Virus record (IMG/VR): IMGVR_UViG_3300045999_005736
Location: 1 to 21,805 of that record
Source of the DNA: a virus
Direction: 5' to 3' (one strand)
Length of the DNA stretch: 21,805 nucleotides
Below, piece after piece: positions 2,744 through 19,747 of this stretch (the stretch's first letter is position 1; every line of letters begins with the position of its first letter). Under the pieces are notes generated by a model. The model saw only the letters and a list, made by a program, of their open reading frames with translations. It had not been told where the DNA came from and ran no database searches. Made by a program: the position numbers and the translations under genes.

Positions 2744-3072
2744 TAGTCAAGCAAATTTTTGAGGTTTGAAATGTAATTGATATAATCTTCGCGCAGGTCG
2801 GGGTAAACGGACATGAGGTCTTCCAGTTTGTTTATTGAATGAATCACGGTTGTATGGTCCATGTCGAAATGTTCGGCAATGGAGGTGAATGTTTTTTTGT
2901 ATTCAACCCGCAAACACCGGAACACCATTTGCCGGATGGCAACCCGGCGGTTGTCCCGAAGTTTTTTCCGCAAGTACGGCAAATCGACGTCAAAGTAAAT
3001 GCATGATTTGTCAACTATGTTGAAAATGGTGAACGGGTTTTTTGTGAGCGCGGGTAAAATCATGTAATTCAT
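2743..3072 (-). CDS. DnaA domain IV-like DNA-binding protein
   Basis: The 109-residue protein is essentially the C-terminal DNA-binding domain of the replication initiator DnaA. Residues 44-56 (VAIRQMVFRCLRV) match the helix before the motif, and FTSIAEHFDMDHTTVIHSINKL (62-83) matches the DnaA signature helix-turn-helix, including D-H-T-T-V-I-H-S. No AAA+ domain (Walker A/B) is present, so it cannot itself act as a DnaA ATPase. Known DnaA domain IV recognises DnaA boxes. A stand-alone copy in a phage replication cluster could mark the phage origin or compete with or recruit host DnaA. The start may be either ATG of MNYM (3072 or 3063). It is coupled to the 54-residue membrane protein by a 1-nt overlap. 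Confidence 0.75.
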   Translation of the reverse strand: MNYMILPALTKNPFTIFNIVDKSCIYFDVDLPYLRKKLRDNRRVAIRQMVFRCLRVEYKKTFTSIAEHFDMDHTTVIHSINKLEDLMSVYPDLREDYINYISNLKNLLD

Positions 3073-3085
3073 TCAACTAATTTAA

Positions 3086-3196
3086 TCAAAATCCGAATAA
3101 GGTTTCAAATAATGAATCAGCAAACAGGCAAAGGAAAATAATGATGGCAATGGCCAGGTATGACCAATTCGGGTTGTAAGGTTTTGGGTTTGACAT
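3086..3196 (-). CDS. 36-residue membrane protein
   Basis: From the ATG at 3196 the leftward frame reads MSNPKPYNPNWSYLAIAII and continues through a hydrophobic helix (IIIFLCLFADSLF) to ETLFGF and a TGA at 3086-3088. One TM segment at about residues 13-26 occupies most of the protein. The frame fits exactly between its neighbours with 11-nt and 13-nt gaps, which supports it as a gene. The function is unknown. Confidence 0.5.
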   Translation of the reverse strand: MSNPKPYNPNWSYLAIAIIIFLCLFADSLFETLFGF

Positions 3197-3207
3197 GATG
3201 GGTTGGT

Positions 3208-3435
3208 TTAATTATTAAGAAAAAATTGGTCTGCCTCATATTTTGCCGCATCAATGGCGTCCTCTTCATCATCAAACCCATCCACCAAAAATTCCAGGGT
3301 TGATTCAAGTTTGCAATATTGATTTGTGTAATTTGAAGGCATTGACAGGATTACCAATGCCCTCCATCCGTCCGGATAAAAGATGGTTTTGATTGTCCAG
3401 TCACCGGCTCCGTTCAGGTAATTTTTTGTTGTCAT
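3208..3435 (-). CDS. hypothetical acidic protein
   Basis: This 75-residue protein is not recognised. An N-terminal part with aromatic residues and likely strands (DWTIKTIFYPDGWRALVILSM) is followed by an acidic helix (VDGFDDEEDAIDAAKYEADQFF). Small acidic phage early proteins often act by binding host proteins, but nothing here points to a target. The ATG at 3435 is preceded by an A/C-rich leader with no Shine-Dalgarno sequence. Confidence 0.6.
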   Translation of the reverse strand: MTTKNYLNGAGDWTIKTIFYPDGWRALVILSMPSNYTNQYCKLESTLEFLVDGFDDEEDAIDAAKYEADQFFLNN

Positions 3436-3494
3436 GGTTGTTTGTTTTTTGGTAATGAAAAAATGCAGTTGGTCGGATGCTGCACCCCGGTGGT

Positions 3495-3776
3495 TTATTT
3501 TTTATGTAGATAATTACGAGGCATTTTTTTTGCGCAAGTATTACCAACTGGAAAGTAACCCTGTGATTCTAAACCGTGTTTTTCGGCATCGGTTGTGGTA
3601 ACAATTGAGTTGTCCATTGCCAACCATTCGGTTGACATATGGACCATGTATGTTTCATTATCGGCCATTGGCTTCATGCAACAAATGCACTGGTTGGCGA
3701 GGATATGGCCATATTTTTCCTCATTATCATCCCTTTTCGGGGATTCATACAAAGGGAACTGAATTTGTTTGATCAT
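3495..3776 (-). CDS. small cysteine-motif protein (possible zinc ribbon)
   Basis: The 93-residue protein begins MIKQIQFPLYESPKRDD. It carries CICCMKPM at about residues 30-37 and one further cysteine near the end (GNTCAKKMP), so a treble-clef-like zinc site is possible but not secured. The upstream in-frame GTG at 3797 would add seven residues, but it overlaps the predicted -7 promoter element at 3797-3804, so it would lie upstream of the transcript start. The ATG at 3776 is therefore preferred. It appears to head its own leftward transcript. The function is unknown. Confidence 0.6.
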   Translation of the reverse strand: MIKQIQFPLYESPKRDDNEEKYGHILANQCICCMKPMADNETYMVHMSTEWLAMDNSIVTTTDAEKHGLESQGYFPVGNTCAKKMPRNYLHKK

Positions 3777-5652: not shown

Positions 5653-6399
5653 TTATTTTTGATGCATCAATTGATAAGTTAACAATTTGGGTTTTGCGTC
5701 CGCGTTTTCCTTCAACCAAAGCCGGTGAACACATTGGAACAAATCAAAATCGTCCGTTGCTTCAATATTGGTTTTGGTTATCAATTGCCATCCTTTGCCC
5801 TGAATGGAATCTTTTTTGCCGTCAGTCCGGGTTTTTGCATTTAGCCACAATATCGCAACGCCATCGGTTTGGGTAAATAATCTATTCGCCGCCAATAATT
5901 CCCGATATGCCGCCAATTGGAGCCAGTACGAATTGGCAATCATGTTTGATGTTTTGATGTCCAAAATGAACCGTTTGCCGTTGATGTCAATTACCCGGTC
6001 AATCGTTCCGGCATATCCCAACGATTCGTTGACGATGTTTTGTTCTATCAACAAATTTTCGGGTTTGTAACGCGTGGCAAATTCAACATACCTTTCAAAC
6101 ATCGCCCATTCCTCCAATGAATACGCCGGGCGTCCGTTTTCATCCAACAAATGGCATTCGTGGCCGTTGTCAAAGCGTTCGGTCAGTTCATGCACGTTTG
6201 AACCCCTGCGACCTGCCATGTCGCGGATTTCGTCCGCCGCTGCGCCTTTTTCTTTGAACCATTGGAGCAATGCGTAAGGTTTCGGGTAGGCTTCCAAAAT
6301 AGTGGTGACGGATGGCACCCATCCACCGGATTCGGACTGATAAAATCGTCCGTCACTAAATGTGAATTGGTTTTTTTCGGTTTTGATTACGTTTAGCAT
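5653..6399 (-). CDS. PD-(D/E)XK nuclease (RecB/Cas4-like exonuclease family)
   Basis: The 248-residue protein shows the nuclease core motifs in order: RRGSNVHELTERF (64-76) with the conserved His at 70, GYAGTIDRVIDI (128-139) with the metal-binding Asp at 134, FILDIKTS (144-151) giving the D-x-K pair (D147, K149), and QLAAYREL (161-168) as the RecB-family Q-x-x-x-Y motif. This is the standard layout of PD-(D/E)XK exonucleases found in phage recombination systems, which resect double-stranded DNA ends. Its neighbours, an SSB candidate upstream and an SF2 helicase downstream, support a recombination or end-processing role. A hairpin in the 78-nt upstream gap may lower its expression relative to the SSB-like gene. 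Confidence 0.8.
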   Translation of the reverse strand: MLNVIKTEKNQFTFSDGRFYQSESGGWVPSVTTILEAYPKPYALLQWFKEKGAAADEIRDMAGRRGSNVHELTERFDNGHECHLLDENGRPAYSLEEWAMFERYVEFATRYKPENLLIEQNIVNESLGYAGTIDRVIDINGKRFILDIKTSNMIANSYWLQLAAYRELLAANRLFTQTDGVAILWLNAKTRTDGKKDSIQGKGWQLITKTNIEATDDFDLFQCVHRLWLKENADAKPKLLTYQLMHQK

Positions 6400-6440
6400 A
6401 TTTTTGTTTTTAAGTTGATTGCACTAATTTGGTAATGAAA

Positions 6441-6468
6441 CCCCGACCATTCATGGCCGGGGTTTTTT
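6441..6468. terminator. terminator/attenuator between the SSB-like and nuclease genes
   Basis: The hairpin CCCCGxCCA-TTCA-TGGxCGGGG (6441-6462, one A/C mismatch) is followed on the plus strand by TTTTTT. On the minus strand, in the direction of the operon, the following sequence is only GGGGTTTCATT, so it may attenuate rather than stop leftward transcription. It may also stop antisense transcription. Confidence 0.55.
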
Positions 6469-6476
6469 ATTGGATT
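6459..6476. repeat. 18-nt repeat, copy 2 (terminator flank)
   Basis: GGGGTTTTTTATTGGATT is identical to 2126-2143 and directly abuts the stop codon of the SSB-like gene. Confidence 0.8.
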
Positions 6477-7052
6477 TTAGAACGGGGCATCCGCCGTTTC
6501 ATCGGGTTTGATTGCTGCCAACAATGATTTGGCGTTTGCTTCCAGCCAGTCCATCATGTCGGAATCGTCCCAGGTTATTTTGCCTTTGACCTTAATTTGG
6601 CGCATTTGGGGCATTTCGCCTGGATTATCCTTTGTGAATGCAGGGGCAATTTTGTTTCCTGATTGATACAACGTGATTCCGGTGACGGTTTTGGATGAAT
6701 CGTTTTTATCCTGCATTGCCCATGGCATCAATTTAATCGGTTGCGTCAAATCCAAATTTGGGATTGCCTTTAATAAACTGGATGAATACCTGGACGAATA
6801 AGGCATGGACACGGAATAGTATTCCGACCCATCGGTAAAATGTACGGTCAATTGTTTGCCGAAATCGTTTTCCCTGGATTCAATTTTGGTCAGCATTCCA
6901 GTCAGGTCCCGGAATCGTTCTTCATGTACCAATTTGCCGGTTTTGGTCGTCCGTTGTTTGGTGCGTTCGTTCGGTTCTTTGAATTGCCGCACAATGTTGC
7001 CATCACTGATTGAGAGAAAAATTGTTTTGCTCTCATTTTTTGTTAGTGCCAT
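6477..7052 (-). CDS. candidate single-stranded DNA-binding protein
   Basis: The 191-residue protein starts MALTKNESKTIFLSISDG. It has a strand-rich core (GMLTKIESRENDFGKQLTVHFTDGSEYYSVSMPYS; VTGITLYQSGNKIAPAF) and ends in the acidic tip KPDETADAPF. Bacterial and phage SSBs share a disordered acidic tail ending in Pro-Phe (for example DDDIPF) that docks partner enzymes, so the ending here is suggestive. It is the first gene of the leftward cluster and directly behind a -7 promoter element, consistent with abundant early expression. An in-frame start at 7088 lies on the promoter itself, so the ATG at 7052 is chosen. An OB fold cannot be confirmed by eye; it could be another beta-rich replication accessory protein. 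Confidence 0.5.
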   Translation of the reverse strand: MALTKNESKTIFLSISDGNIVRQFKEPNERTKQRTTKTGKLVHEERFRDLTGMLTKIESRENDFGKQLTVHFTDGSEYYSVSMPYSSRYSSSLLKAIPNLDLTQPIKLMPWAMQDKNDSSKTVTGITLYQSGNKIAPAFTKDNPGEMPQMRQIKVKGKITWDDSDMMDWLEANAKSLLAAIKPDETADAPF

Positions 7053-7085
7053 AAAAATGTTTTTGGTGAAAAATTTATTACGTTG

Positions 7086-7093
7086 CAAAAGTA
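7086..7093 (-). promoter_or_regulatory. -7 element TACTTTTG, leftward early promoter
   Basis: The minus strand reads TACTTTTG, an exact TAnnTTTG, about 34 nt ahead of the ATG at 7052. No TTTG lies at the expected -33 distance, so the promoter is either weak or needs an activator. The sequence after it (TTGCAACGTAAT) recurs upstream of the leftward gene at 2009. Confidence 0.5.
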
Positions 7094-7140
7094 TCGGGAT
7101 ATTGCTGAAATAAAAAAAAATATTTTCGGCATTATTTATT

Positions 7141-7148
7141 TAATTTTG
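7141..7148 (+). promoter_or_regulatory. -7 element TAATTTTG, rightward early promoter
   Basis: TAATTTTG, an exact TAnnTTTG, lies 22 nt ahead of the ATG at 7170 and back-to-back with the leftward -7 element at 7086-7093. The predicted transcript start is near 7155, which rules out the in-frame upstream start at 7083. No clear -33 TTG is seen. Confidence 0.5.
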
Positions 7149-7169
7149 CCGCATAAAAAAATATTTAAT

Positions 7170-7367
7170 ATGCAAAACACACACACAAACACAACCGAAA
7201 CAACCGAATTGAAAAAACTCCGCGGTCGCCGTAGATTGCCGGAAGGTGAACGGAAAGTCGCCATCACCATTTTTGTCAAACAAAAACATTTTAACGATGT
7301 CCGCCGCGAAATCAAACAGTTGGAGGGAAAGTACAATACAATCACGGATACAACAAATGTTGATTGA
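7170..7367 (+). CDS. small basic RHH-like protein, possible regulator
   Basis: The 65-residue protein has a basic patch (LKKLRGRRRLPEGERK, 15-29), then a short strand and amphipathic helix (VAITIFVKQKHFNDVRREIKQLE, 30-52) followed by a polar tail. A strand followed by a helix of this kind resembles the first half of a ribbon-helix-helix (Arc/CopG) DNA-binding fold, but the second helix is short or missing. Position supports regulation: it is the first rightward gene next to the divergent promoters. The ATG at 7170 is chosen because the predicted promoter lies upstream of it. Its end overlaps the next gene in another frame. The regulatory role is inference. Confidence 0.6.
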   Translation: MQNTHTNTTETTELKKLRGRRRLPEGERKVAITIFVKQKHFNDVRREIKQLEGKYNTITDTTNVD

Positions 7368-7614
7368 TCAGGGATGGACCGTTGTGAAGTTGATACAAAC
7401 CAACCACAACGGGATGCCGGATTTGATGTGTTTAAAGCAGGGGAAAACATTTTTCATCGAAGTCAAAGCATTTGACGGTAAATTGTCACCCCTGCAAAAA
7501 TTCCGGCACAAACAATTAAATGCCCAGGGTTTCAATGTTTTCACAATCAATCAACTAAAAAATGTCCAATCAATCGCAATTGCTGAAAGCGGCCCAATAT
7601 TACCACCAACATAA
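7297..7614 (+). CDS. VRR-NUC domain nuclease
   Basis: The 105-residue protein matches the stand-alone VRR-NUC fold: Glu 11 in ESTIQSRIQQMLIDQGW, GMPDL (39-43) with the metal-binding Asp 42, FFIEVKAF (52-59) giving E55-x-K57, and SPLQKF (64-69). VRR-NUC proteins are PD-(D/E)XK-like nucleases, common in phages beside primase-helicase genes and thought to cut branched or structured DNA. The start is uncertain. The ATG at 7297 keeps the N-terminal Glu motif but overlaps the RHH-like gene by 71 nt; the ATG at 7357 would overlap by only 11 nt but drop that motif. The end overlaps the PrimPol gene by 53 nt. Confidence 0.8.
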   Translation: MSAAKSNSWRESTIQSRIQQMLIDQGWTVVKLIQTNHNGMPDLMCLKQGKTFFIEVKAFDGKLSPLQKFRHKQLNAQGFNVFTINQLKNVQSIAIAESGPILPPT

Positions 7615-14636: not shown

Positions 14637-15401
14637 ATGAGCATCTACCAATACAAAACCGATTCAATTTCCGCAACCATAAAGGATGTGGATGGCAAAC
14701 AGGGAATCGTAAGCGGTTATTTCAACTCATTCAACAACGTGGATTCGGATGGCGATATCATCCGCCCCGGCGCATTCACCAAAACGATTGCGGAAAATGG
14801 CCCGGGATCGGCGAGGCCGCGCATCAAACATTTGATGAATCATGACGTGAGCCAGGTGCCTGGCGTTTTGCAGGTGCTGAAGGAAGATGGCCGCGGTTTG
14901 TATTACGAATCAAAAGCCGGGTCCCACACGTTGGGGCAGGATTTTATCAAAATGGTGGAATCAGGCATTGTGACTGAACATTCCATCGGATTCAAAACGA
15001 TAAAGAAAAACCAATTGCAGGATTTTGAAAACTACCAACAAAATCCCGGCAAAGGTTGGTTTGAAATCACGGAAGTGAAATTGTGGGAAGGTTCGTCATT
15101 GACCGCATGGGGAGCAAATGAAATGACCCCGATTGTTGGCATGAAGGGACTGACTGCCAATCAGCATTTGGACCGTATGTTGGCCCGTTGCAAGGCATTG
15201 GAAAAATTTTGCCGCAACACAACCGCATCGGACGAAACAATCGAACTTTTGTTGATTGAACAAAAACAACTTACTCAAATCATTATTGAAATGCAAAAGG
15301 ACACAAAGCCGACCGATGGGGTTACTTTGCCGGAACCGGAGCAAATCAACATTGATGACATAAAACAATTATTCAAAACCTTTTCAACTCAATTATCATG
15401 A
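14637..15401 (+). CDS. prohead (maturation) protease, HK97 family
   Basis: The 254-residue protein contains the U35/HK97 protease fold: VSGYFNSFNNVDSDGDIIRPGAF (25-47), the catalytic His 69 in LMNHD, and the catalytic Ser 116 in TEHSIGF. The C-terminal 80 residues are a helical, glutamine-rich tail (LLLIEQKQLTQIIIEMQK), probably a scaffold-like or self-cleaved part. The enzyme trims the delta domain from the capsid protein inside the prohead before expansion. The next gene starts within its stop codon (ATGA), and its product keeps such a delta domain while the second capsid gene does not. Confidence 0.88.
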   Translation: MSIYQYKTDSISATIKDVDGKQGIVSGYFNSFNNVDSDGDIIRPGAFTKTIAENGPGSARPRIKHLMNHDVSQVPGVLQVLKEDGRGLYYESKAGSHTLGQDFIKMVESGIVTEHSIGFKTIKKNQLQDFENYQQNPGKGWFEITEVKLWEGSSLTAWGANEMTPIVGMKGLTANQHLDRMLARCKALEKFCRNTTASDETIELLLIEQKQLTQIIIEMQKDTKPTDGVTLPEPEQINIDDIKQLFKTFSTQLS

Positions 15402-16618
15402 GCGAAATAATCAAACAACTGGAAGGCGAGTTCACCAAACTGAAGGCCGACCTGGAGCAATCCACCGCTAAAAACGTGGACGAAAAAATGGCCGCAATCA
15501 ATGAAGCGATTGAATCGCTGAAATCGGCAAAACCCGAAGTAACTGCCGACGATCTGGCCGAAATCAAATCCGATTTGAACGCCACAATCAAGGCCCTGGA
15601 CATGGTCCAAACCCGTGTGAAAAACACCGGAACAACCGCCAACCAATCACAACCCGAAGCGTTCGGCGATGTATTGCTGAAGGCAATGGACGATGCCCGT
15701 GATGGCATTAAAGAAATGAAAGCCGGGAACCGCAAATCCCTTTCCTTGAATTTGAAGGAAATGAAGGACATGACGTTTGCCGGTAATTTCCCGACTGCAT
15801 CCGCATCGGTTGCCACCGTCCGCCCCGGCATCATCCCCGGAGCCAACCGCAAACTGCACATCCGTCAATTGCTGCAACCCGGAAGCATGACCGGTTCAAC
15901 GTACAATTACGTCAAAGAAAATTCAATAAGTGGTGGTCCAGTTGGCCCGGCCGCTGAAGGGACATTGAAGCCGCAAATTGACATTAACCTGGCCGAAGTT
16001 GCATCACCTGCACAATGGATCGCCGGTTTCCTGGTTGCATCCCGGAACATGATGGACGACATCGTTGCGTTTAGTTCGTACCTCCAAACCCGTTTGCCGG
16101 AGTTGCTTTTGAATGCCGAGGACAATCAAATCATCAACGGAACAGGCACATCGCCCCAACTTTCCGGCATCCTGGACACCGGTAATTTCACCGCTGCATC
16201 ATCAACCGCAACGGCAAAGGTTTCACGTTTGATTGAATCAATCGGCCAACTTGAAGGATTTGACCGGGAAGCCAATGGCATCCTGTTGAACCCCGCCGAT
16301 TACTATTCAATGATGTTGAATGCAACAACCGGTGGCGAATTCACATTGCCCGACCAACTGGTAACAATCCAAAATGGTCAGGTGTATTTGGCAGGTGTTC
16401 CCGTGTTCAAATCCACCGCCCTGACCGCAAACAATTTCATTGTTGGCGATTGGGTAATGGGTGCAAACCTGATAACCCGTGAGCCGGTCCGCGTTGAATT
16501 TTTCTACGAAGATTCCACCAACGTCCGCCAAAACAATGTGACCGTCCGGGTTGAAGAGCGCATCGCGCTACCCATTTACGGCAACACATATTTTGTGGCC
16601 GGTACATTCGGTGCGTAA
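15398..16618 (+). CDS. major capsid protein, HK97 fold, with N-terminal delta domain
   Basis: The 406-residue protein has a helical, charged N-terminal region (1 to about 76: EFTKLKADLEQSTAKNVDEK, LKSDL-type heptads), then a linker (TGTTANQSQPEAFG) and the HK97 capsid fold from about residue 90. Typical phrases are MTFAGNFPTASASVATVRPG (125-144), SRNMMDDIVAFSSYLQTRLPELLL, and the C-terminal GVPVFKSTALTANNFIVGDW...RVEFFYED. The N-terminal region is the expected scaffold (delta) domain, removed by the upstream protease; the cut probably falls near 76-90. Leu codons are often CTG and other codons are more C-ending than in the neighbours, consistent with high expression. A close paralogue follows immediately. 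Confidence 0.9.
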   Translation: MSEIIKQLEGEFTKLKADLEQSTAKNVDEKMAAINEAIESLKSAKPEVTADDLAEIKSDLNATIKALDMVQTRVKNTGTTANQSQPEAFGDVLLKAMDDARDGIKEMKAGNRKSLSLNLKEMKDMTFAGNFPTASASVATVRPGIIPGANRKLHIRQLLQPGSMTGSTYNYVKENSISGGPVGPAAEGTLKPQIDINLAEVASPAQWIAGFLVASRNMMDDIVAFSSYLQTRLPELLLNAEDNQIINGTGTSPQLSGILDTGNFTAASSTATAKVSRLIESIGQLEGFDREANGILLNPADYYSMMLNATTGGEFTLPDQLVTIQNGQVYLAGVPVFKSTALTANNFIVGDWVMGANLITREPVRVEFFYEDSTNVRQNNVTVRVEERIALPIYGNTYFVAGTFGA

Positions 16619-16644
16619 TTGATTGACGATTTGTAAACAAATAA

Positions 16645-17607
16645 ATGCGAAACGCAATGAGTGGAATTCTTAATGAGTTGAAAGTCGATGTATTGTTGAA
16701 GGCAATGGAAAGCCAAAAGGATGGCATACAGGAATTGTTTGACGGCAAACGCAAGTCAATTTCGTTGGATTTGATTGAGGCGAAAAACATGACATTTGCC
16801 GGAAATTTTCCGACTGCCAATGCATCGGTTTCAACAATTCGTCCGGGTGCAACTCCATTGTTGGACCCAACACCACATGTACGAAATTTAATCAATCAGG
16901 GGTTGATGTCAGGTTCACAATATGTGTACGTTAAAGAAACATCATTTAAAGACCCACCGTTGGTGACAAGTTCGGCCGAGGGTGAAACCAAAAAAAGCGA
17001 CGACATAAATTATTCACAAGTCGTTGCACCTGCGCAATGGGTTGCCGGGTTTTTGGTTTGTTCACGGAACATGATGGACGACATCATTGCGTTTTCGTCA
17101 TATCTTGAAAGCCGATTGACCGAATTGTTGTTGGTCGCCGAGGACAACCAATTGATAAATGGGAACGGTACCAGTCCGAACATTTCGGGCATTACCGATT
17201 CAGGCAATTTCACAACATCATCATCCGGCGCATTGACCGTCAATACAATCATTGCCGATATGGGGCAATTGGCGGCATTGGGTCGAAATGTTACAGGTGT
17301 TTTGATTAATCCACAGGACTATTTTACATTGATGTCAAGTGCAACAAATGCCGCGATTTCATTCACAAATGGTCAAATGTACATTGCCGGAATTCCAATA
17401 TTTACCAATCAACGATTGGCCAAGGGTTCGTCCATTGTCGGCGATTGGGTGAATGGTGCAAATTTGATTGTCCGTGAACCGGCCCGTGTAGAATTCTTTT
17501 ACGAGGATTCGGACAATGTTCGGAAAAACAATGTCACGGTGCGGGTTGAAGAACGGATTGCGTTTCCAATTTATGGCAGCAATTATTTTGTCTACAAAGC
17601 CGGATAA
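16645..17607 (+). CDS. second HK97-fold capsid protein (paralogue lacking the delta domain)
   Basis: The 320-residue protein aligns with the preceding major capsid protein from DVLLKAM (residue 15 here, 91 there) to the end. Shared phrases include MTFAGNFPTA-ASV, PAQWVAGFLV-SRNMMDDI-AFSSYL, EDNQ-INGxGTSP, VGDWVxGANL, VRVEERIA-PIYG. It has only about 14 residues before the match, so it lacks the scaffold domain, and a loop near its residues 223-235 is about 10 residues shorter. It starts 26 nt after the first gene with an A-rich leader and is followed by a terminator, so both should be made together. Heteromeric capsid, penton or size-control roles are possible; a decaying duplicate is unlikely, since the frame is intact and conserved. 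Confidence 0.85.
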   Translation: MRNAMSGILNELKVDVLLKAMESQKDGIQELFDGKRKSISLDLIEAKNMTFAGNFPTANASVSTIRPGATPLLDPTPHVRNLINQGLMSGSQYVYVKETSFKDPPLVTSSAEGETKKSDDINYSQVVAPAQWVAGFLVCSRNMMDDIIAFSSYLESRLTELLLVAEDNQLINGNGTSPNISGITDSGNFTTSSSGALTVNTIIADMGQLAALGRNVTGVLINPQDYFTLMSSATNAAISFTNGQMYIAGIPIFTNQRLAKGSSIVGDWVNGANLIVREPARVEFFYEDSDNVRKNNVTVRVEERIAFPIYGSNYFVYKAG

Positions 17608-17631: not shown

Positions 17632-17657
17632 CCCCGCCCAAATCGGGCGGGGTTTTT
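17632..17657 (+). terminator. terminator after the capsid genes
   Basis: The perfect 8-bp GC stem CCCCGCCC / GGGCGGGG (17632-17639, 17645-17652) with a 5-nt loop is followed by TTTTT. It ends the strongly expressed capsid unit and probably lowers transcription of the connector and tail genes. Confidence 0.88.
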
Positions 17658-17669
17658 CAAATCAGCAAA

Positions 17670-18239
17670 ATGGACTACCGATACAACATTGACAAATTGC
17701 AATTTCCGATGGGGCCAGGTGCCACATTCAATTGCATTTATGACATTGCATTTGACGACCCGGACCCGGTGGTTGAGCCGGTCACATTACAGGAAGCACT
17801 GGACCATTGTTTGATTGATGCATTGGGTCAGGACAACACCATTGTTGAAGCATTCATAACAACCGCCCGGCAAATGTGTGAGCAATACACCAACATTGGG
17901 TTCATCAACCGCGATTTGACGGTGACATTGTGCAATGCATGTGGTGGCATTTATTTGCCATATGGCCCGGTCGTTGACATCACGTCAATGAAAAATTACG
18001 ATGGCGAAACCATACCCACATTCAAAGTTGTTGGGCCGCGTTTCAAGCAAATTGCTGAACCGGCTTATTCATACATCGAAGTTGAATACAATGCCGGGTA
18101 TTCCGTTTTGCCGGAAGTATTGAAACGGGCGTTGTTGTGTCAGGTTGCATATTTGTATGAACACCGTGGCGATGAAAAGGAAGGGACGATGTCGCCGGTT
18201 GCCATGTCATTATTGAAACCATTACGCCGTGTGTCATGA
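17670..18239 (+). CDS. head-tail connector, HK97 gp6-like
   Basis: The 189-residue protein has the helical signature of this family: PVTLQEALDHCLID (37-50), DNTIVEAFITTARQMCEQYTN (55-75), the short beta section RDLTVTLCNACGGIYLPYGPVVDI, and C-terminal helices VLKRALLCQVAYLYEHRGDEKEG. Such proteins form the ring that attaches under the portal and starts the head-tail joint. It is the first gene after the capsid terminator and overlaps the next gene by 4 nt (ATGA). Confidence 0.8.
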   Translation: MDYRYNIDKLQFPMGPGATFNCIYDIAFDDPDPVVEPVTLQEALDHCLIDALGQDNTIVEAFITTARQMCEQYTNIGFINRDLTVTLCNACGGIYLPYGPVVDITSMKNYDGETIPTFKVVGPRFKQIAEPAYSYIEVEYNAGYSVLPEVLKRALLCQVAYLYEHRGDEKEGTMSPVAMSLLKPLRRVS

Positions 18240-18562
18240 TTGGACAACTGAACCGAAAGATAAAAGTAAGTTACCCGACATTCGGCATTGATTCCGCCGG
18301 TGGCCAGTTCGTTGACGATGTCACCGAATGGGAGCAAATGGCGAGTGTGGAAACAACACGGGGCAACGGCAATGATTCGGAGGCAATGAACGTGTGGACA
18401 TACGATGTAAAATTCACCATGCGGGTATTGTTGACCATTAAGTCCAACTACACGTTGGAATACATGGGCGACAAATACGCCATCAATTCAATAAAGGTGA
18501 CCAACGAACGGAAAAAACAATTTTACGAAATAACTGCAACAAAAGTGGATGGCAACATTTAG
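18236..18562 (+). CDS. head-tail adaptor/stopper, HK97 gp7/SPP1 gp16-like
   Basis: The 108-residue protein reads MIGQLNRKIKVSYPTFGIDSAGGQFVDDVTEWEQMASVETTRG, a typical opening for small beta-barrel head-closure proteins, followed by strands (FTMRVLLTIKSNYTLEYMGDKYAINSIK) and YEITATKVD. These proteins close the filled head and dock the tail. Overlaps on both sides (ATGA and 14 nt) and gene order support the call. Confidence 0.78.
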   Translation: MIGQLNRKIKVSYPTFGIDSAGGQFVDDVTEWEQMASVETTRGNGNDSEAMNVWTYDVKFTMRVLLTIKSNYTLEYMGDKYAINSIKVTNERKKQFYEITATKVDGNI

Positions 18563-19070
18563 CATAAAGGCAACCGGCATTGAGGCGATCCAGGCGAAGA
18601 TTGCTGAACCGAAGTTCAAAGCCGGTGTTAATGCCGCGTTGAATGCATTTGCTTTGTCAACGGTAAGCGATGCAAAACAATTAGCACCAAAGGATGAAGG
18701 CATTTTGGCGCGTTCAATAAATTTTGACCCTGCAACCGATTATGTTGCGACAATCAATGTGAATGTTGACTATGCCGCATATGTTGAATTTGGGACAAAA
18801 AAATTTGCCGCATCGTACGTCAGCGGATTGCCCCGTGATTGGCAATCGTTTGCCGCCGAGTTCAAAGGGAAGGGCAACGGGTCATTTGCCGATTTTGTAC
18901 GCAGGTTGACGCTATGGGCAAAACGGACGGGCAAAATACCGGCTGAAGCGGCTTACGTGACGGCGTTGAAAATATTGCGTAATGGTTTGAAACCCCGTCC
19001 GTATTTATACCCTGCATTCAATAAAAATTTGCCGCAATTAACAAAGGACCTAAATAACGCCGTACAATGA
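18549..19070 (+). CDS. HK97 gp10-like tail-joining protein
   Basis: The 173-residue protein has the family pattern: an N-terminal strand with IKATGIEAIQAKI, a helix rich in Ala, the APKDEGILARSI motif (about 48-59), the NVDYAAYVEFGTKK motif (about 73-86) and the terminal RPYLYPAFNKNLPQL (about 150-164). These proteins act at the neck or tail completion step. It carries an inserted segment between about 90 and 135, including a positively charged stretch (WAKRTGKIP). The start overlaps the adaptor gene by 14 nt; the end overlaps the next by 4 nt. Confidence 0.78.
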   Translation: MATFSIKATGIEAIQAKIAEPKFKAGVNAALNAFALSTVSDAKQLAPKDEGILARSINFDPATDYVATINVNVDYAAYVEFGTKKFAASYVSGLPRDWQSFAAEFKGKGNGSFADFVRRLTLWAKRTGKIPAEAAYVTALKILRNGLKPRPYLYPAFNKNLPQLTKDLNNAVQ

Positions 19071-19747
19071 ACGACATAAATTACCCATTGCGGAAGGCAT
19101 ATTTTGCGGCATTAACGGCAACTGGGTTGCCTGTGTATTATCAGGGATTGCCAAACAATCAAAACCCTGAAGAATACATTGTTTTCCGGTCCATAAATTC
19201 AAACGAAGCATCCACCAAAAATTCAGCTGACACGGAAACGCAAATCACGGTTGAAATCCATACATATCAGGAATACGCCAACCAGGGGCGATTGGTTGAA
19301 ACAATTGCCGATGATGTTTACCAATATGTTTATGCCATCAGCCAGTTTGTTTTGCCGATGGATGGGGTGCAAATGGTGTCAACGGAATTGGTAAGTGATC
19401 AAACGAACAATTACGGGTACCTGGGCAATCGGATGTACATTGACCGGTTTATCACGTTCAAGCACAACATTTTCATTGGTGGAACCGGGAACGGGACAAC
19501 GCCAATCATTATTGTCAATGGGGTCAGCCGGTTCACCTACATTGCCACAGGTGGGGAAACGTCGTTTGTTGTTGGCGATGCGGTCGGGCAAAACCCAATT
19601 TGCCTGTTTAAAGATGGCATCCAGTACACGTTGGTTTCCCCTGGACCGCCGACCGACAAACGGTTCACATTTGATTCAGCAACCGGGACCGTGTCATTTG
19701 AACAACCCTGCGAAGTTGGGGAAATATTGTTTTTCCTTTATGATTGA
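19067..19747 (+). CDS. tail terminator protein fused to a fibre-like C-terminal domain
   Basis: Residues 1 to about 137 look like a tail terminator (gp17/DUF3168 type): LRKAYFAALTATGLPVYYQGLP, EEYIVFRSINSN, strand ITVEIHTYQEYANQGRLVETIADDVYQYV, and the RFITFKHNIF end. A Gly-rich hinge (GGTGNGT, 138-144) leads to an extra 80-residue beta-rich domain with VNGVSRFTYIATGGETSFVVGD...CLFKDGIQYTLVSP...FTFDSATGTVSFEQPCEVGEILFFLYD. That domain resembles modules otherwise common in phage tail fibres (FTATAGQT-F...VFLNGV...DYT...). The usual terminator length is about 120-140 residues, so the addition is clear. Function: caps the tail tube; the extra domain may decorate the neck. Confidence 0.7.
   Translation: MNDINYPLRKAYFAALTATGLPVYYQGLPNNQNPEEYIVFRSINSNEASTKNSADTETQITVEIHTYQEYANQGRLVETIADDVYQYVYAISQFVLPMDGVQMVSTELVSDQTNNYGYLGNRMYIDRFITFKHNIFIGGTGNGTTPIIIVNGVSRFTYIATGGETSFVVGDAVGQNPICLFKDGIQYTLVSPGPPTDKRFTFDSATGTVSFEQPCEVGEILFFLYD

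Follow-up and report, generated by a model that had tools for sequence, protein, structure and literature searches.

The window analyzed here is the whole 21,805-base stretch of IMG/VR virus record IMGVR_UViG_3300045999_005736, and it covers the left portion of a morphogenesis operon of siphovirus-like type. The genes run in the order small terminase, TerL, portal, Mu-F-like protein, S78 prohead protease, MCP1, MCP2, connector, head closure, gp10-like, tail-terminator-like, tail tube, and the start of the tape measure, where the names small terminase, tail-terminator, and tape measure were assigned from position only. The prohead serine protease (Peptidase_S78, 254 aa; 14637–15401, + strand; PF04586, E = 1.5e-20) overlaps by 4 nt the start of MCP1 (15398–16618, + strand), which encodes a full-length HK97-type major capsid protein of 406 aa with an N-terminal delta (scaffold) domain. 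In one relative, L064, the capsid region (~6276–7502) has an open frame of 637 aa in total that starts with S78-protease-like sequence, a fusion of protease and capsid genes that are normally separate. MCP2 (16657–17607, + strand) encodes a tower-less capsid paralogue of 316 aa. The earliest possible ATG of MCP2, at 16645, would give 320 aa, but the start is most likely 16657, where the homologous ATG is found in a related contig, L003 (at position 2123 of that contig). An intrinsic-terminator-like hairpin and T-run lies 3′ of MCP2 (17632–17657, + strand) and is kept in L003, being G-C-rich and followed by TTTTT in both sequences. No comparable fold was found in the short MCP1–MCP2 spacers of the window or L003, in keeping with the earlier proposal that both genes have a single terminator in common. 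The first gene 3′ of the capsid pair encodes a head–tail connector (17670–18239, + strand; PHROG 442, E = 1.9e-22).

MCP1 and MCP2 are identical at 182 of 311 residues (59%; BLASTP, E = 6e-131), and both match the profiles of HK97-type major capsid proteins above the cut-offs. For PF05065 (Phage_capsid), the scores were 102.9 bits (E = 2.6e-29) for MCP1 and 73.6 bits (E = 2.3e-20) for MCP2 against a curated cut-off of 24.2; for TIGR01554, they were 99.7 bits (E = 1.9e-28) and 60.4 bits, respectively, against a cut-off of 27.5. Both proteins also matched PHROG 10 (major head protein), MCP1 over residues 14–404, and the PDB matches were of HK97/D3 type (9lbm, 9osb, 3qpr, and 1ohg). No gp23 family matched the pair in the profile searches, in which the only Pfam and PHROG matches were PF05065 and PHROG 10/617. 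Thus, the two intact, adjacent open reading frames with a shared capsid fold described in the initial annotation are borne out. AlphaFold models of MCP1 and MCP2, computed from four-sequence alignments only, had pLDDT values of 30.7 and 31.9, too low for structural use. The 21-nt identical stretch previously seen between the copies is real and is their longest aligned identical run; identity of this length was reached by 2.2% of synonymous-codon shuffles, making it weakly unusual, and the longest identical run within the MCP1/MCP2 pair of L003 was 11 nt. Given these values, gene conversion is a weakly supported source for the 21-nt identity and was set aside.

The same MCP1–MCP2 arrangement is present in L003 (IMGVR_UViG_3300042507_002994), a 10,285-base contig with 84–92% DNA identity to the window. 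Between the two, the S78 protease is 99% identical and MCP1 is 95% identical at the amino-acid level, whereas MCP2 is only 60–62% identical. Because L003 carries the pair independently and with a strongly different MCP2, an assembly artefact or strain mix is ruled out as its source. A tree built from 29 capsid cores placed the MCP1 and MCP2 sequences of both contigs in one clade (support 100/100) adjoining single-copy IMG/VR relatives, with the MCP2 sequences together at 100/100 and the MCP1 sequences together at 96/91. The pair thus arose by one duplication, and the grouping of MCP2 with MCP1 rules out its acquisition as a laterally transferred, unrelated capsid protein.

Besides the L003 contig, a second copy was absent from 79 other IMG/VR loci of this capsid family, and a single capsid copy was likewise found in the Chitinophaga eiseniae prophage L088, in eight other Chitinophagaceae-level genomes, and in the syntenic contigs L103 and L104; some single-copy contigs end near the capsid gene, so that a second copy beyond the end is possible in individual cases. 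The single-copy relatives inspected at full length have the N-terminal domain. Among annotated phages, a match at a second place was seen in 0 of 490 records matching MCP1 and 0 of 595 matching MCP2, in line, for the phages surveyed, with the earlier view of HK97-type capsids as normally homomeric. A survey of 395 Bacteroidota genomes gave 26 Phage_capsid matches and no tandem pair, scans of genome contigs gave no second tandem capsid pair, MCP2-directed scans of IMG/VR returned L003 alone or nothing, and the portal used as bait recovered no further MCP2 carrier. With no second copies across these surveys and ~80 other related loci carrying one capsid gene, tandem capsid pairs are therefore as unusual as first proposed, and this one looks lineage-specific. 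The literature on duplicated HK97-type phage capsid genes, searched largely outside subscription papers, yielded no direct precedent. The nearest prophage suggests a host in or near the Chitinophagaceae. Another contig, L102, is 98% identical to the window at 19067–19747 and begins downstream of the capsid genes. The tail-terminator-like protein encoded at these positions has a C-terminal extension of ~85 residues that is absent from the L103/L104 homologues and has no Pfam match; a similar segment is fused instead to the L104 head-completion protein (2927–3532; 30% identity over 63 residues, E = 3e-8), which suggests that this neck-protein segment is a mobile add-on domain.

In HK97 and D3 procapsids seen by cryo-EM, the delta domain consists of a coiled-coil tower on its N-terminal side and a helix-turn-strand on its C-terminal side (PMC10275583, PMC12749128), the latter termed spoke in HK97 (residues 76–103; PMC10275583) and PDAR in D3 (residues 81–113; PMC12749128), which clamps the P-domain. 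Maturation cleavage occurs at K103/S104 in HK97, just after the spoke (PMC10275583), and at 113/114 in D3 (PMC12749128). When MCP2 was aligned with MCP1 and with these subdomains, its N-terminus fell at the tower/spoke boundary. The complete delta domain and predicted cleavage site are present in MCP1 and not in MCP2, from which the tower (MCP1 residues 1–83; 15398–15646, + strand) is missing and in which the spoke (MCP1 residues 86–119; 15653–15754, + strand) is kept, with 18 of 31 positions identical over MCP1 residues 90–120. The description of MCP2 as a copy without a delta domain is therefore right for the tower (~83 residues) and wrong for the spoke/PDAR (MCP1 ~90–120). The predicted P1 residue of the cleavage site, MCP1 Lys120 (15755–15757, + strand), aligns at most 1–2 residues from the HK97 and D3 cleavage points and is invariant in 54 of the 54 non-MCP2, delta-bearing sequences, many of which are near relatives and hence not 54 independent observations. 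At this position, MCP2 has Ile40 (16774–16776, + strand) in the window and Ser in L003, lending support at the level of sequence to the earlier idea of a subunit that may enter the prohead without proteolysis. Because MCP2 lacks both the tower and the cleavage-site Lys, its role in assembly would differ from that of an ordinary HK97-type major capsid protein. The predicted scaffold cleavage site carries a motif, [LM]K...D[MIV][TS], with invariant Lys and Asp (window 15755–15757 and the L009–L104 capsids), that is common across this Bacteroidota-phage capsid family.

A second module is also missing. MCP1 residues ~312–321 (GGEFTLPDQL; 16331–16360, + strand) form an A-domain loop that aligns with HK97 ~292–301, and ~8 of these residues are absent from both MCP2 proteins, including Pro318, which is Pro in 54/54 relatives. 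The loop is present in the outgroup phi17:1 and was therefore lost by MCP2. In HK97-fold encapsulin shells, A-domain loops form the pores (PMC6668986). The crosslinking residues are intact in both copies. The crosslink Lys169, crosslink Asn356, and catalytic Glu363 of HK97 correspond to MCP1 Lys191 (15968–15970), Asn379 (16532–16534), and Glu386 (16553–16555) and are retained in MCP2 as Lys112 (16990–16992), Asn291 (17527–17529), and Glu298 (17548–17550; all + strand). This autocatalytic triad occurs in both MCP2 sequences and in 54/54 others in the alignment; MCP1 and MCP2 are thus predicted to crosslink, and retention of the triad in MCP2 points to a place in a shell. Among 48 family positions conserved at ≥95%, the two MCP2 proteins keep 37 and 36. 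With the triad kept and the tower, Lys, and loop gone, MCP2 seems to have been retained for the shell and altered in the modules for scaffolding, cleavage, and the capsomer center, and we consider it probable that MCP2 is a functional shell subunit.

Between the window and L003, MCP2 had dN 0.29, dS 1.18, and dN/dS 0.25, compared to dN 0.036, dS 0.35, and dN/dS 0.10 for MCP1 and dS values of 0.19–0.43 for most neighboring genes. MCP2 is therefore under purifying selection and is constrained rather than neutral. The initial annotation had named loss or pseudogenization in close relatives among the signs of a redundant duplicate; the only close relative in which this region is sequenced, L003, has an intact MCP2, which goes against redundancy. 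The high dS indicates that the MCP2 alleles separated before the DNA around them did, and recombination with an unsampled MCP2-carrying phage has probably replaced one of the two. Given such a replacement, the longer branch path for MCP2 in the tree (0.74 vs 0.064 for MCP1) would reflect both the greater age of the alleles and faster change. The gp10-like neck gene (window 18549–19070; L003 4020–4586), with dS 1.85 and 59% amino-acid identity, shows the only other exchange-like divergence in the shared stretch, in which neighbors are mostly 97–99% identical, and it and MCP2 may be exchanged between phages as two distinct modules.

Codon usage also separates the two capsid genes. In the window, CTG encodes 16 of the 36 Leu residues in MCP1 and 0 of 26 in MCP2 (p = 5e-5), with a like trend in L003, and the CTG preference is strongest in MCP1 among the structural genes; in both genomes, MCP1 is rich in NNC codons and MCP2 poor in them. 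Absence of the MCP1-type bias from MCP2 is consistent with fewer copies being needed, but it may instead reflect age or mutation history, as gp10, which may likewise have been swapped, has 0/14 CTG.

These properties are compatible with MCP2 being a specialized, lower-abundance shell subunit that co-assembles with MCP1, most likely as a dedicated pentamer (penton) protein, a reading that we favor tentatively and with a little less than even confidence. The penton idea fits the loop deletion, the missing codon bias, the kept crosslink residues, and two precedents. T4 gp24 is, like MCP2, a phage-encoded capsid paralogue that probably came from duplication of the major capsid gene, an origin that our tree gives for MCP2; its propeptide is much shorter than that of gp23 (10 vs 65 residues), which recalls the missing tower, and the A-domain is involved in both systems, as it is the site of some mutations that bypass gp24 by enabling gp23 to build pentamers (PMC9958956). 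T4 differs in having a separate scaffold core and a gp24 that is cleaved and ~20% identical to gp23, whereas MCP2, a member of PF05065, shares 59% identity with MCP1 and seems not to be cleavable at the usual site. The second precedent, Ccm of SaPIbov5, is an HK97-type homologue of the phage phi12 capsid protein (CP) that co-assembles with this delta-domain CP and occupies all pentamers (PMC8569155); MCP2 may be likened to it as an HK97-type capsid homologue that would likewise join a delta-domain capsid protein in the shell and fill its pentamers. Unlike MCP2, Ccm shares 24% identity with CP, carries a delta domain of its own (87 residues, cleaved), and is encoded by a satellite against its helper, whose head size it redirects. 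MCP2 adjoins MCP1 in a phage head operon, and the window is not that of a satellite without its own capsid gene, as terminase, portal, protease, MCP1, connector, and tail genes share the operon. The HK97 and D3 major capsid proteins share with this pair the fold family, delta domain, upstream prohead protease, and crosslink triad but make hexamers and pentamers from one capsid gene; the related single-copy capsids (L088 and the IMG/VR loci L009–L087) share its family, delta domain, and gene order but have no second copy. Capsid-paralogue pentons are thus known from T4 and SaPIbov5, and as far as we found, none is encoded in the own genome of an HK97-type phage. Counting against the penton assignment, only two genomes carry MCP2, the raised dS of MCP2 suggests an exchange of its alleles between phages, which would be less expected of a structural part closely fitted to MCP1, and an uncleaved penton would differ from both gp24 and Ccm, which are cleaved.

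MCP2 could instead belong to the shell at other sites, mixed into hexamers, next to the portal, or at certain quasi-equivalent positions. The lack of towers there would change crowding inside the head or its curvature and thereby adjust head size or the incorporation of protease or portal. The kept crosslink triad also fits such placement, tower length and T number are correlated across HK97, D3, and T5 (PMC12749128), and 30 scaffold domains touch the HK97 portal (PMC10275583), so that tower-less subunits could matter anywhere. Shortening the loop in only some subunits of a capsomer would unbalance its center, however, and both precedents of known position, gp24 and Ccm, are pentons; we regard non-penton placement as possible but unlikely. 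That MCP2 is a redundant duplicate heading to decay might be argued from its presence in only two sampled genomes, with other relatives being single-copy, and from its faster evolution relative to MCP1. Both genes, however, are full-length open frames despite their dS and have a low dN/dS, both keep the triad and most conserved positions, and both lack the same two modules (tower and A-loop), which indicates an inherited state rather than random decay and makes this explanation quite improbable.

The divergence of MCP2 between close relatives (62% identity for the MCP2 alleles vs 95% for MCP1) could come from an arms race, if MCP2 acted outside the head of its own phage, either poisoning satellites and co-infecting related phages or distracting capsid-sensing host defenses as a decoy; Ccm, a capsid homologue, does divert the assembly of another element (PMC8569155). 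We think this very improbable for a gene that sits in the head operon with a terminator in common, retains the shell crosslink residues, and has no match to defense-system models. Least probable by far is that MCP2 forms a compartment of its own, an encapsulin-like shell, or serves as a transient assembly factor. HK97-fold proteins without a delta domain include encapsulins, and MCP2 weakly matches the NCBIfam family 3 encapsulin model (NF041188), but its score of 50.1 bits is far below the cut-off of 180, MCP1 matches the same model, the nearest relative of MCP2 in the tree is MCP1, and no cargo gene was seen in the operon.

For the penton reading, we infer from the sequences that MCP2 is expressed, incorporated, left uncleaved, and placed at pentamers, and we propose the following scheme. 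MCP1 would build the hexamers, including those surrounding the portal, and would supply the coiled-coil scaffold towers, which would matter most around the portal; in HK97, the portal is contacted by 30 scaffold domains from the hexons next to it, whereas the scaffold domains that surround regular pentons do not touch the penton subunits to any substantial extent (PMC10275583). MCP2 would fill minor positions, most likely the eleven pentamers. The spoke (PDAR) that it still has would dock into the clamps shared with MCP1 at the quasi-threefold axes, and its shorter A-domain loop would be better matched to an opening of five-fold than of six-fold symmetry. It would stay full length because the cleavage-site Lys is missing and, on expansion, would join the chainmail through its retained Lys, Asn, and Glu. 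In its complete form, this scheme describes an HK97-type lineage with a split capsid job, scaffolded and cleaved MCP1 hexamers beside tower-less, uncleaved, crosslinked MCP2 pentamers held by a permanent internal spoke clamp, which we consider conceivable but on balance doubtful.

Open questions of HK97-type assembly include how a single protein comes to form hexamers as well as pentamers and what purpose the delta-domain towers serve. MCP2 is a natural subunit in which tower is separated from spoke, the cleavage residue is gone, and the crosslink residues are kept, beside an intact sister. If MCP2 is a penton protein, the pair would capture capsid subfunctionalization at an early stage (59% identity compared to ~20% for T4 gp23/gp24) and would offer a natural experiment on whether scaffold towers or propeptide cleavage are at all required in pentons. 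It would then represent an independent and recent invention, in the HK97 branch, of a vertex protein like T4 gp24.
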